Source: Paraburkholderia sp. BL10I2N1
GTDB lineage: Bacteria > Pseudomonadota > Gammaproteobacteria > Burkholderiales > Burkholderiaceae
Assembly: GCF_004361815.1 (NCBI RefSeq)
Contig: NZ_SNWA01000001.1
Span: 4,588,001-4,652,000, forward strand
Direction: 5' to 3'
Length of the DNA stretch: 64,000 nucleotides
Positions within the stretch are counted from its first letter, which is position 1, and every line of letters starts with the position of its first letter. The position numbers and the translations under genes are program-made. Below, one piece after another: positions 43,490-46,221 of the stretch. The notes beneath the pieces are model-generated. The model worked only from the letters and a program-made list of their open reading frames with translations, had not been told where the DNA came from and did no database searches.

Positions 43490-45034
43490 TCAGGAACGCT
43501 GCGGGTTCAGCTTGTCCGCGTTCGAAAAGAGCTTGTTGAGCGCGGAAATATAGGCCTTCGCGGAAGCCGCGACGATATCAGGATCGGTGCCGACGCCGTT
43601 CACGATACGGCCGCTCTTCGACAGGCGCACCGTTACTTCGCCCTGCGCCTGCGTGCCGGTCGTGATCGCGTTCACCGAGTACAGCAGCAGTTCCGAACCG
43701 CTACCTACTTCGGTTTCGATCGCGTTCAGCGTGGCATCGACCGGGCCGTTACCGCGTGCTTCTCCGGTCACTTCCTTGCCGTCGACCGAAAACACGACCT
43801 TCGCGTGCGGCTGCTCGCCAGTTTCCGAGTGCTGTGACAGCGACACGAACTTGTAATGCTCCCTCTCCTGCGCTTCCGCCGACTCCTCGGTGACGATCGC
43901 GATGATGTCCTCGTCGAAGATTTCGGCCTTGCGGTCGGCCAGTTCCTTGAAGCGCGCGAACGCGGTGTTCAGTTCGCCTTCGCTGTCGAGTGCGATGCCG
44001 AGTTCCTGCAGACGCTGCTTGAACGCATTGCGGCCAGACAGCTTGCCGAGCACGATCTTGTTCGCGCTCCAGCCCACATCTTCGGCGCGCATGATTTCGT
44101 AGGTGTCGCGCGCCTTCAGCACGCCGTCCTGGTGGATGCCTGACGCGTGCGCAAACGCATTCGCGCCGACCACGGCCTTGTTTGGCTGCACGACGAAACC
44201 GGTGATCTGCGACACGAGCTTCGAGGCAGGCACGATCTGCGTCGTGTCGATGCCGAGATCGAGGCCGAAGTAGTCCTTGCGGGTCTTCACAGCCATCACG
44301 ATTTCTTCGAGCGACGTATTGCCCGCGCGCTCACCGAGACCGTTGATCGTGCACTCGACCTGACGCGCGCCACCGATCTTAACGCCCGCCAGGGAGTTCG
44401 CCACCGCCATGCCGAGGTCGTTGTGGCAGTGCACGGAGAACACGGCCTTGTGCGAATTCGGAATGCGCTCACGCAGCGTCTTGACCAGCTGGCCGTACAG
44501 TTCCGGCACGCCATAGCCGACCGTATCGGCGATGTTGATCGTGGTCGCACCTTCGGCGATCACTGCTTCCAGCACGCGGCACAGAAAGTCCATGTCGGAG
44601 CGGCTGCCGTCCTCCGGGGAGAACTCGACGTCGTCAGTGAACTTGCGCGCGAAGCGCACGGCGAGCTTTGCCTGCTCGAACACCTGATCGGGCGTCATGC
44701 GCAGCTTCTTTTCCATATGCAGCGGCGACGTCGCGATGAATGTATGGATACGGAAGCGCTCAGCGGGCTTCAACGCGTCGGCGGCACGCTGGATATCCTT
44801 GTCGTTCGCACGGGCGAGCGAGCAGATGGTGCTCCCCTTGATCATCGACGCGATCGTATGAATCGAATCGAAGTCGCCGTTCGAACTGGCGGCGAAGCCG
44901 GCCTCGATCACGTCCACCTTCATCCGTTCGAGCTGCTTCGCGATACGGATTTTTTCTTCCTTCGTCATCGACGCACCGGGCGATTGTTCGCCGTCGCGCA
45001 AGGTCGTGTCGAAAATGATCAGCTTGTCTGCCAT
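43490..45034 (-). CDS. leuA: 2-isopropylmalate synthase
   Basis: A 514-residue enzyme condensing acetyl-CoA with 3-methyl-2-oxobutanoate, the first committed step of leucine synthesis. The catalytic barrel has [17 protein letters not shown], the metal motif [13 protein letters not shown], and [19 protein letters not shown]. The C-terminal LeuA dimerisation/regulatory domain (from about residue 390) mediates leucine feedback. The ATG follows GGAG at seven bases. The gene has its own promoter and a leucine-rich leader peptide upstream (45157-45240), so it is probably attenuated by leucine supply. It is the last gene of the ilv-psd-pss-leuA block. Confidence 0.96.
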
Positions 45035-45101
45035 GTCAGGTCTCCGGGGGACTCAGTCAAATTGGGGATGATGGAGATGCGAAAACGGAATTCGGGTGTT
45101 T

Positions 45102-45120
45102 GCGCCACCGCTGGCGACGC
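45102..45120 (-). repeat. Hairpin between the leader peptide and leuA
   Basis: A short stem (CGCCA with TGGCG, extendable with mismatches) lies 37 bases after the leader peptide stop and about 70 bases before the leuA ATG. No T-tract follows, so it is not a convincing intrinsic terminator. It could take part in an alternative RNA fold or affect Rho access. Confidence 0.35.
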
Positions 45121-45156
45121 TCAACAACAGACGAGGCAGACGGGAGGCGAAAACGA

Positions 45157-45240
45157 TCAGCGCGGCAGGCGCGCTAGCACTAGTGCACGTAGGGGTGCAC
45201 CGGCTTGAAGAGACAGGAGGGGGAACTTGAAAATAACCAT
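45157..45240 (-). CDS. leuL: Putative leucine-rich, leaderless leader peptide of leuA
   Basis: A 27-codon frame upstream of leuA contains seven leucines, at residues 8, 9, 11, 17, 20, 22 and 25, and ends PLRALVLARLPR. Residues 17, 20 and 22 use CTA, a rare leucine codon in such GC-rich genomes. Its ATG starts seven bases after the -10 element of a strong promoter, so transcription would begin at or next to the AUG and the message would be leaderless; no ribosome site exists. This matches the design of a ribosome-mediated attenuator that senses charged tRNA-Leu. The symbol leuL is given by analogy. I found no T-tract terminator before leuA, so how stalling controls leuA is open. Confidence 0.65.
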   Translation of the reverse strand: MVIFKFPLLSLQAGAPLRALVLARLPR

Positions 45241-45247
45241 GTCAGCG

Positions 45248-45276
45248 ACTATAGCGGCATTCCGGAAAACGTGCAA
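45248..45276 (-). promoter_or_regulatory. Sigma-70 promoter of the leu leader-leuA transcript
   Basis: On the minus strand, TTGCAC (45276-45271) and TATAGT (45253-45248) are separated by exactly 17 bases. This is one of the best consensus promoters in the window. The expected transcription start falls at 45240-45242, on or beside the leader peptide ATG. Confidence 0.7.
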
Positions 45277-45300: not shown

Positions 45301-45332
45301 CGAAAACGGCAACCGGAGGGCCGCCGTTTTCG
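45301..45332 (-). terminator. Intrinsic terminator after pssA
   Basis: A perfect 10-bp stem (CGAAAACGGC with GCCGTTTTCG) and a 12-base loop lie 23 bases after the pssA stop on the minus strand, with TTTT inside the 3' arm. It separates the phospholipid genes from the leuA promoter. Confidence 0.75.
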
Positions 45333-45354: not shown

Positions 45355-46221
45355 TCAGTGGTCACGCTGCGACGAGCGGGCTGGATTGCCCCTGCCCCGC
45401 ATTGCCTGATAGCCCCAGAACACGTAGCCCGACAGGCCATACAGCACAAACAGGCCAAACAGCATCAACGGCGGGTCGGACGACACCAGCACAAACGCGA
45501 CCACCACCAGCAGAATGGCCGCGAACGGCACGCGATGCCGCACGTCGAGCGCCTTACCGCTGTAAAACGGCGCGTTCGAGACCATCGTCACGCCCGCATA
45601 GATCGTCAGCACGAACGCGACCCACGGCAGCCAGACGAGTTTGAGCGGCACGCGATTGTCGGTGGCGAGCCACACGAAACCGGCGATCAGCGCGGCCGCC
45701 GCCGGGCTCGGCATGCCCTGGAAAAAGCGCTTGTCGACGACACCGATGTTCGTATTGAAGCGCGCGAGCCGCAGCGCCGCGCCCGAGCAGTAGACGAACG
45801 CCGCGAGCCAGCCCCAGCGCCCAAGGTCCTTCAGAATCCACTCGTACATGACGAGCGCCGGCGCGACGCCGAACGACACCATGTCTGACAGGCTGTCGAA
45901 CTGCTCGCCGAACGCGCTCTGCGTATGGGTCATTCGCGCAACGCGGCCGTCCATGCCGTCTAGCACCATCGCCACGAAGATCGCGATCGCCGCCACTTCG
46001 AAGCGCACGTTCATCGCCTGCACGACGGCGAAGAAACCGCAGAAGAGCGCTGCGGTGGTGAAGGCATTCGGCAGCAGGTAAATGCCGCGCTTTCTTAGAA
46101 ACTGCTGACGCGCGGCACGGCGGCTGTCGACCACCGCCGGCTCCTGCACCGGCTTGTTGCGGCGGAACGGCCGCGGCTGCGGGCCGGCGCTACGGGGTCG
46201 ACGCGGTTTGAATGCGGCCAT
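45355..46221 (-). CDS. pssA: CDP-diacylglycerol-serine O-phosphatidyltransferase
   Basis: A 288-residue integral membrane enzyme making phosphatidylserine from CDP-diacylglycerol and serine. The CDP-alcohol phosphatidyltransferase motif D-G-x2-A-R-x8-G-x3-D-x3-D is present as DGMDGRVARMTHTQSAFG then EQFDSLSD. A basic, Pro-rich N-terminus (about 45 residues) precedes the first of about seven to eight membrane helices. It lies 20 bases after psd, so the two steps to phosphatidylethanolamine are co-transcribed. Confidence 0.94.
   Translation of the reverse strand: MAAFKPRRPRSAGPQPRPFRRNKPVQEPAVVDSRRAARQQFLRKRGIYLLPNAFTTAALFCGFFAVVQAMNVRFEVAAIAIFVAMVLDGMDGRVARMTHTQSAFGEQFDSLSDMVSFGVAPALVMYEWILKDLGRWGWLAAFVYCSGAALRLARFNTNIGVVDKRFFQGMPSPAAAALIAGFVWLATDNRVPLKLVWLPWVAFVLTIYAGVTMVSNAPFYSGKALDVRHRVPFAAILLVVVAFVLVSSDPPLMLFGLFVLYGLSGYVFWGYQAMRGRGNPARSSQRDH

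Follow-up and report, generated by a model that had tools for sequence, protein, structure and literature searches.

A predicted leaderless, leucine-sensing leader peptide upstream of leuA in Paraburkholderia and its relatives

The window analyzed here, a stretch of 64,000 nucleotides from Paraburkholderia sp. BL10I2N1, carries upstream of leuA a short leucine-rich reading frame, designated leuL, which, judged from its sequence and that of its relatives, very probably encodes a leaderless, Leu-sensing leader peptide and serves as a ribosome-mediated attenuator of leuA. This degree of confidence applies to the leaderless, Leu-sensing attenuator core and does not extend to the Rho step considered below. 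Comparison lends strong support to the putative leucine sensor, composed of the leaderless leader and its Leu codons, and ribosome-mediated leucine attenuation is considered the best reading because of the conservation of the leader together with the terminators and antiterminators of sister lineages.

The leuL leader and its promoter

The arrangement described in the original prediction was exact by direct reading of the minus strand: a promoter TTGCAC-N17-TATAGT, seven bases, and an ATG opening a frame of 27 codons, with seven Leu codons of which 17, 20, and 22 are CTA, that stops 122 nt before the leuA start. The features of this region are as follows.

45271..45276, minus strand: -35 hexamer TTGCAC (45276-45271 in reading direction), with TTG and the 17-nt spacing kept in 87 of 89 other loci of the genus
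45248..45253, minus strand: -10 hexamer TATAGT (45253-45248 in reading direction), followed by 7 nt and then the ATG
45157..45240, minus strand: leuL, predicted leaderless 27-codon leader peptide ORF, MVIFKFPLLSLQAGAPLRALVLARLPR and a stop (ATG at 45240-45238, stop at 45157), conserved in relatives
45042..45045, minus strand: GGAG, the Shine–Dalgarno (SD)-like sequence of leuA, from the sequence
43490..45034, minus strand: leuA, 2-isopropylmalate synthase (match to NF002087 at 919.6 bits, cut-off 729), the proposed regulated gene
45302..45331, minus strand: terminator-like hairpin GAAAACGGC...GCCGTTTTC behind pssA (45355-46221), from the sequence

The other Leu codons of leuL are CTC (codon 8), CTG (codons 9 and 25), and CTT (codon 11), and CTA makes up 3/7 of its Leu codons compared with 5/168 across leuA and its five upstream neighbors, namely the acetolactate synthase large and small subunit genes (ilvB-ilvH), ilvC, psd, and pssA. 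It is suggested that the hairpin behind pssA, which is absent from the listing of the consensus terminator scan, would part leuA from ilvB-ilvH-ilvC-psd-pssA.

The pattern TTGCNN-N16-18-TATANT-N6-7-ATG was matched three times in the 9.2-Mb genome and once in a reversed control; the two other genome matches begin frames that are 5 and 13 aa long, and only the leuL copy is Leu-rich. The presence of the Leu-rich leuL behind this promoter–ATG arrangement is not chance. The predicted transcription start coincides with the first base of the leuL ATG or lies about 1 nt away, and leuL is taken to be first in the transcript because of the promoter position. The consensus promoter scan omitted this promoter, whose score is below its threshold, and the main text of a transcription-start map of B. 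cenocepacia (PMC4603805) contains no mention of "leuA".

Conservation and loss within the genus

The leuA gene is present in 116 of the 117 genomes of the window's genus, the window's own counted, and the upstream regions were read in 89 of the 115 other leuA-bearing genomes. These 89 loci, the window, L003–L006, and L172 constitute a set of 95 loci; L001 (the window again) and L002 (a paralog) were dropped. An in-frame leader ending in ALARLPR or near it was found intact in 45 loci and eroded in 17, while the ATG is gone in 31 and the promoter pattern in two. The leader ORF is lost in 50 of the 95 loci in and near the genus, and control is therefore regarded as dispensable there; the promoter is retained in 48 of those 50. 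A quick tree of the 95 loci, in which long branches were flagged and L170 and L172 were judged misplaced, placed 48 of the 50 leader-loss loci in one clade of 56 (support 98), and the window lies outside this clade. In four loci that lost the leader ATG (L085, L102, L004, and L109), an ATG 10 nt past the -10 opens another frame that has no stop before the leuA start.

The codon table covers 33 leaders of 27 codons, 29 of them distinct, out of the 45 intact ones; five of other lengths were left out, as were seven placed in the lossy clade (L083, L086, L087, L093, L104, L107, and L172), and L170 was kept. The Leu codons, which alignment of relatives had been expected to reveal as conserved, proved to be so, with Leu at codons 17, 20, 22, and 25 in 27–29 of the 29 distinct leaders, with some synonymous change, and Leu fixed or nearly fixed at codons 11, 17, 20, 22, and 25. 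CTA itself is kept at codons 17, 20, and 22 in 28, 27, and 26 of the 29, respectively, and accounts for 99 of 196 leader Leu codons against none of the 283 Leu codons that these genomes have within the first 130 leuA codons, counts that overstate independence because the sequences are related. The frame is conserved as well, as the original prediction had anticipated: the leader has a pN/pS of 0.50 when read in frame, compared with 0.81 and 1.38 for the two alternative frames, computed on sequence pairs with at most 16 differences.

Conservation beyond the genus

The leader is found in many beta- and, apparently, gammaproteobacteria. Among the best 80 of at least 594 named matches, 46 have a Leu-rich ORF upstream of leuA; TAnnnT lies 5–8 nt before the ATG in 42 of these 46, and an SD-like GGAG, GAGG, or AGGA precedes none of them (0/46). 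The promoter–ATG spacing is kept in relatives, and the promoter with its 17-nt spacer stands in 87 of the 89 genus loci. As background, a -10 precedes 21 of 1,031 ATGs and 1 of 107 non-Leu-rich ORFs. One ORF was chosen per locus, the most Leu-rich, with ties given to one with a -10, which makes the fractions slightly favorable; without this choice, 44 of the 77 Leu-rich ORFs of the named loci (best 80 of at least 594) have a -10. The order-level sample, 60 of 119 other leuA-bearing genomes, has a Leu-rich ORF in 49 loci, 36 of them with a -10 and one with an SD, and a frequent peptide is approximately 27 aa long and ends in LLAGLLLRLAR or LLLRPAR(T/S). The promoter–ATG arrangement and its spacing are kept in the window's genus, Burkholderia, Cupriavidus, Pandoraea, Noviherbaspirillum, and remoter Betaproteobacteria.

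For further comparison, a leader was defined by at least three Leu in eight residues and TAnnnT 5–8 nt before the ATG, and 118 of 231 scanned loci qualified (the 172-locus promoter-survey set and the 60 order-level loci, less L001). The -10-to-ATG gap is 6 or 7 nt in 115 of these 118 leaders, which were preselected for a gap of 5–8. A -35 TTG at 16–18 nt is present in all 38 leaders of the window's group and in 40 of 42 other leaders without a U-tract. The peptide outside the Leu- and Arg-rich end varies, and other lineages have the same peptide type with different Leu codons and different RNA. The CTA bias of the original prediction holds in the window's group and in the terminator lineages, where CTA makes up 0.51 and 0.49, respectively, of the Leu codons of the leader, but fails in the other leaders without a terminator, which use mostly CTG (CTA share 0.12). 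CTA was rejected as a universal control codon by this last share, and the conserved sensor is therefore described as "Leu codons" and not as "CTA".

The class-level loci L235–L274 come from other orders within the GTDB class of the window and cover every one of the 40 further class-level genomes that carry leuA. In these loci, a Leu-rich ORF starting with ATG, or with GTG if a -10 precedes, was observed in 32 of 40, with TAnnnT 5–8 nt before the start in 21 and an SD in one. Many of these peptides end in LLP, the stop often lies within a CTGCC...GGCAG hairpin, and CCCTGGCGAGGG stands behind the stop region with this hairpin in five of 20 class-level loci. The sequence past the stop is not rich in C in 20 loci picked by hand outside Burkholderiales, where C minus G averages 2.0.

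Among the 34 named loci without a Leu-rich ORF, 22 were tested for an upstream LeuA-like tail, and a diverged LeuA-like C-terminal stretch (29–40% identity) was observed upstream of leuA in 16 of them (L019, L022, L027, L032–L034, L041, L047–L049, L052, L057, L060, L061, L069, and L072). These tails apparently represent tandem leuA-like genes, which may explain the missing leader at those named loci.

Terminators and C-rich tracts behind the leader

An intrinsic terminator lies behind the stop in 38 of the 118 leaders, 34 found by scan (energy −12 or lower) and four (L043, L051, L076, and L174) moved to this group by eye because the hairpin finder disallows internal loops. The group without a U-tract retains seven weak hairpins whose energy is above −12 and whose tails are T-rich; a looser cut-off gives 41 by scan. 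Of the leaders with no terminator behind the stop, 38 belong to the window's group and 42 do not. The terminator-bearing leaders belong to Comamonadaceae, Polynucleobacter, and Cupriavidus. A perfect match of at least 6 nt between the leader end and the 5′ arm of the terminator, as expected of an antiterminator, is present in 29 of the 34 terminators found by scan against 9% of shuffles; 19 have ACGGGC (ACGGGC:GCCCGU, one lineage) and six have TGGGGC (TGGGGC:GCCCCA, another lineage), each fitting its own terminator. By their sequence, the terminator-bearing lineages have a textbook attenuator with an antiterminator candidate inside the leader ORF.

The promoters of the terminator group (e.g., L013 and L036) are unlike those of other leaders, with 34 of 38 lacking the -35 TTG and 28 of 38 having an extended -10 TGn.

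The z of the hairpin region is −3.24 in the terminator group (37 of 38 below −1.5) and −1.27 in the leaders without a U-tract outside the window's group (15 of 41); it is below −1.5 in five of seven sampled leaders of the window's group, and the window's own hairpin region, at −0.52, is no more stable than shuffles. Leaders that lack a terminator carry a tract rich in C and poor in G immediately past the stop: C minus G in the 25 nt behind the stop has means of 7.6 in the other leaders without a U-tract, 6.7 in the window's group, and 3.0 in the terminator group.

The absence of a T-tract terminator before leuA, noted originally, stood for the gap between leader and leuA, where a hairpin scan for perfect stems found no U-tract terminator in the window or in the 38 leaders of its group. 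At the leader stop itself, the consensus scan gave one weak terminator-like site (45176-45158, tail ATCGTTTTCG; 0.6 expected in shuffles), the U-tract of which is not kept in all relatives.

RNA folds in and behind leuL

The following folds and segments were considered.

45183..45200, minus strand: hairpin A within leuL, GUGCAC-CCCUAC-GUGCAC, with CTA 17 in the loop and CTA 20 at the foot
45159..45175, minus strand: hairpin B over the last leuL codons and the stop, AGCGCG...CGCGCU, a weak terminator-like site in the consensus scan
45121..45156, minus strand: C/U-rich, G-poor segment directly past the leuL stop and 5′ side of P2, a candidate Rho loading region by composition
45102..45120, minus strand: P1 hairpin, GCGUCGCC-AGC-GGUGGCGC, with no U-tract behind it and almost invariant columns
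45098..45154, minus strand: P2, a long alternative hairpin of the C-rich segment with the P1 arms, which excludes P1 and is preferred by RNAalifold

These folds were compared in 44 distinct sequences, the window among them. Hairpin A has compensatory changes, with two-sided substitutions at columns 9-27 (6 of 44 sequences), 14-25 (5 of 44), and 15-24 (1 of 44), and broken pairs, with columns 10-26 and 14-25 unpaired in 7 and 9 of 44. Hairpin B is nearly invariant and therefore provides no covariation evidence. The pair 72-132, found in P2 only, is U-A or C-G with both sides changed in 15 of 44; each of the three outermost P2 pairs is missing in 11–17 of the 44 sequences, and P2 partners slid by two columns give a covariation score as good (0.107 vs. 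0.100).

When the 12 nt that follow the stop were masked to mimic a ribosome positioned there, P1 was computed to exceed P2 in 41 of 44 sequences, while P2 exceeded P1 in 20 of 44 with a ribosome stalled upstream and in 30 of 44 with no ribosome. The computed values for the window are 0.99 for P1 with the ribosome at the stop and 0.98 for P2 when it is stalled. Pairing of the C-rich segment with the hairpin region exceeds shuffles (p < 0.05) in 34 of the 38 leaders of the window's group when the hairpin was shuffled and in 12 of 38 when the segment was shuffled. The P1/P2 switch would be clade-specific at best, because it is weak in half of the relatives, is tied with the two-column slide, and has no counterpart in other lineages without a U-tract. 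P2-like pairing was rejected as a general feature, since these other lineages have no pairing of the C-rich segment with the hairpin. Pairing of the Leu-codon run with the post-stop segment was also rejected as a general feature, the mean duplex z being −0.62 in 38 terminator leaders, −0.33 in 41 leaders without a U-tract, and +1.32 in seven of the window's group.

The P1 motif, sought by a regular expression, is kept in 44 of 45 ORF-intact loci, 23 of 48 ORF-lost loci, and neither of the two promoter-less ones. In a second tree, from which six rows were dropped, no intact leader without P1 occurs among the 89 remaining rows; well-supported independent pairs number only three, too few for a test, and correlated loss of P1 and leader was set aside.

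Proposed mechanism and alternatives

As the promoter spacing suggests, RNA polymerase would begin transcription on the A of the leuL ATG or on a neighboring base, and the ribosome would initiate on the 5′-terminal AUG without an SD. When leucine is plentiful, the ribosome would reach the stop and mask the nucleotides behind it; P1 would form, and the C/U-rich segment would stay single stranded. When leucine is short, the ribosome would stall at Leu codons, in this clade mostly CTA 17, 20, and 22, and the free C-rich segment would pair, with P2 replacing P1. P1 would correspond to the OFF state and P2 to the ON state. We infer here the initiation without an SD, the stalling, and the leucine response of leuL.

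The OFF step may consist of Rho loading on the exposed C-rich segment, an assignment put forward tentatively and with less than even confidence. Rho is favored because no U-tract follows, and the C-rich tract and the sign of the P1/P2 switch also fit. Such a Rho-dependent output had been among the options of the original prediction, and the follow-up leaves it with compositional and structural support from the C-rich segment, against which stands the weakness of the P1/P2 switch in half of the relatives. By comparison with rut sites, the C-rich tract behind leuL is short, and a stalled leuL ribosome would itself not cover this tract, which is a point against Rho. The alternatives for the OFF step are intrinsic termination at P1 or another factor.

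Intrinsic termination without a good U-tract, in which P1, or hairpin B with the tail AUCGUUUUCG, terminates unaided, is unlikely. P1 begins 33–44 nt past the stop, compared with 17–40 for the terminators of sister lineages, and the consensus scan includes hairpin B with its T-rich tail; however, AAAC or GAAC stands behind P1 in nearly all relatives, and the U-rich tail of hairpin B is absent in many of them (Burkholderia has GTTCTC there, and one clade has CGCTCG or a similar sequence). A translating ribosome would moreover melt hairpin B precisely when leucine is plentiful. Hairpin B with a UUUU tail was rejected as a regulated terminator for this wrong sign and its non-conserved tail.

Translational attenuation, in which the leader or the post-stop segment sequesters the leuA ribosome-binding site (RBS) and stalled ribosomes release it, is less probable still; this mode of control has been put forward for the actinobacterial LEU element and reported for poly-Cys leaders of mycobacteria. 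In no group are leader ORF:RBS and post-stop:RBS duplexes more stable than their shuffles (mean z between 0.04 and 0.51), with p < 0.05 in 2/38, 2/42, and 0/38 for ORF:RBS and in 0/38, 0/41, and 0/38 for post-stop:RBS. SD sequestration by either segment was rejected for want of signal over shuffles, and the translational switch of the original prediction is thereby left without support, although the lack of a U-tract terminator at leuL, the few leader–SD pairs in the window's MFE fold, and a Streptomyces leaderless leuA leader described without a terminator (PMC8079986) speak for it.

It is very improbable that the leader transcript is mainly a small RNA or leaderless mRNA acting on other mRNAs by RNA or peptide, like rnTrpL/peTrpL of Sinorhizobium. 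A leaderless leader with a hairpin could persist as a short RNA, and peTrpL shows that leader peptides can act in trans (PMC7298713), but conservation at leuL tracks the Leu codons and the position before leuA, unneeded for a trans role, and the peptide varies outside its Leu- and Arg-rich end. An incidental ORF, with promoter and hairpins that bind a protein or are a plain 5′ UTR and Leu codons that stem from selection of an RNA palindrome (GCTAGCGCTAGC), is hardly credible given the frame-specific conservation, the Leu at codons 17, 20, 22, and 25 in spite of synonymous change, and the same kind of peptide made elsewhere from different Leu codons and different RNA, even though CTAG palindromes contain CTA codons 20 and 22, compensatory changes occur in hairpin A, and 48 of 50 ORF-lost loci retain the promoter.

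Within the preferred reading, ribosome-mediated leucine attenuation, a broader and more doubtful possibility is that one leaderless leucine sensor, predating the split of beta- and gammaproteobacteria, has conserved its reading frame through changes of output. Burkholderia, Paraburkholderia, and others would use Rho loading gated by a fold that the ribosome selects, Comamonadaceae, Polynucleobacter, and Cupriavidus would rely on classical intrinsic terminators, and one Paraburkholderia clade would have given up control altogether.

Relation to known systems

In the Rho-dependent leader-peptide systems tnaC, mgtL, and speFL, the ribosome on the leader decides the access of Rho to a C-rich RNA segment. 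The gating proposed at leuL is the same, whereas those systems sense other signals. The Rfam family RF00512 (Leu_leader) gave no covariance-model match at the gathering score in the window or 20 related loci, and Rfam gave none in 14 class-level loci (among L235–L274) at E up to 0.5. An attenuator survey is said to have been made by Vitreschak et al. in 2004. No published account of the leuL element was found in the titles and abstract openings searched, a coverage outside which most subscription journals lie.

The enterobacterial leu leader has an SD. The enterobacterial leuL attenuator shares the Leu-rich leader and rare CTA control codons (PMC1183508), and in the Salmonella leu leader, a change of three CUA to CUG lowered sensitivity, while theory also favors CUA (PMC1183508). 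Because of this Salmonella result and theory, CTA would suit a leucine sensor (PMC1183508). The leader described here differs from the enterobacterial one in being predicted leaderless, in having no U-tract terminator in this genome, and in lacking an Rfam match. Mycobacterial poly-Cys attenuators reportedly work, according to Canestrari in 2020, via structures sequestering the downstream RBS, whereas such sequestration is unsupported at leuL. Their short ORF is likewise leaderless and abounds in codons for the amino acid that they sense (PMC9031893).

Actinobacterial leuA leaders (the LEU element; Streptomyces LeuL1, MRFGLLLLSCRGEGL and a stop) likewise place a Leu-rich leader before leuA (PMC8079986; PMC1262725). 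The leuA leader of S. lividans is described as transcribed leaderless and with no typical Rho-independent terminator (PMC8079986), and the stem of the LEU element pairs the run of Leu codons with the leuA SD, in addition to a pseudoknot (PMC1262725). In contrast, leuL is without leader:SD pairing above shuffles (whole ORF vs. RBS region), and it belongs to a different phylum with a different peptide. In Sinorhizobium meliloti, rnTrpL/peTrpL is also an amino-acid attenuator leader in an RNA starting with its ATG (PMC7298713); its terminator releases a trans-acting sRNA, whereas there is no U-tract terminator at leuL. Campylobacter LeuL is a 28-aa leader before leuABCD, with rare Leu codons including CUA at the C-terminal end (PMC3847290). 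Unlike leuL, it was found by a search for an ORF with a ribosome-binding site, and hence is leadered, and its phylum is different (PMC3847290).

Significance

The leuL leader constitutes a widespread candidate leucine attenuator that was missed by the curated Rfam families in the loci tested. Its loci offer natural comparisons of a sensor with and without a terminator, and of close relatives with and without the sensor. A testable case is made that, in beta- and perhaps gammaproteobacteria, leu attenuation with leaderless initiation is older than the leadered form.
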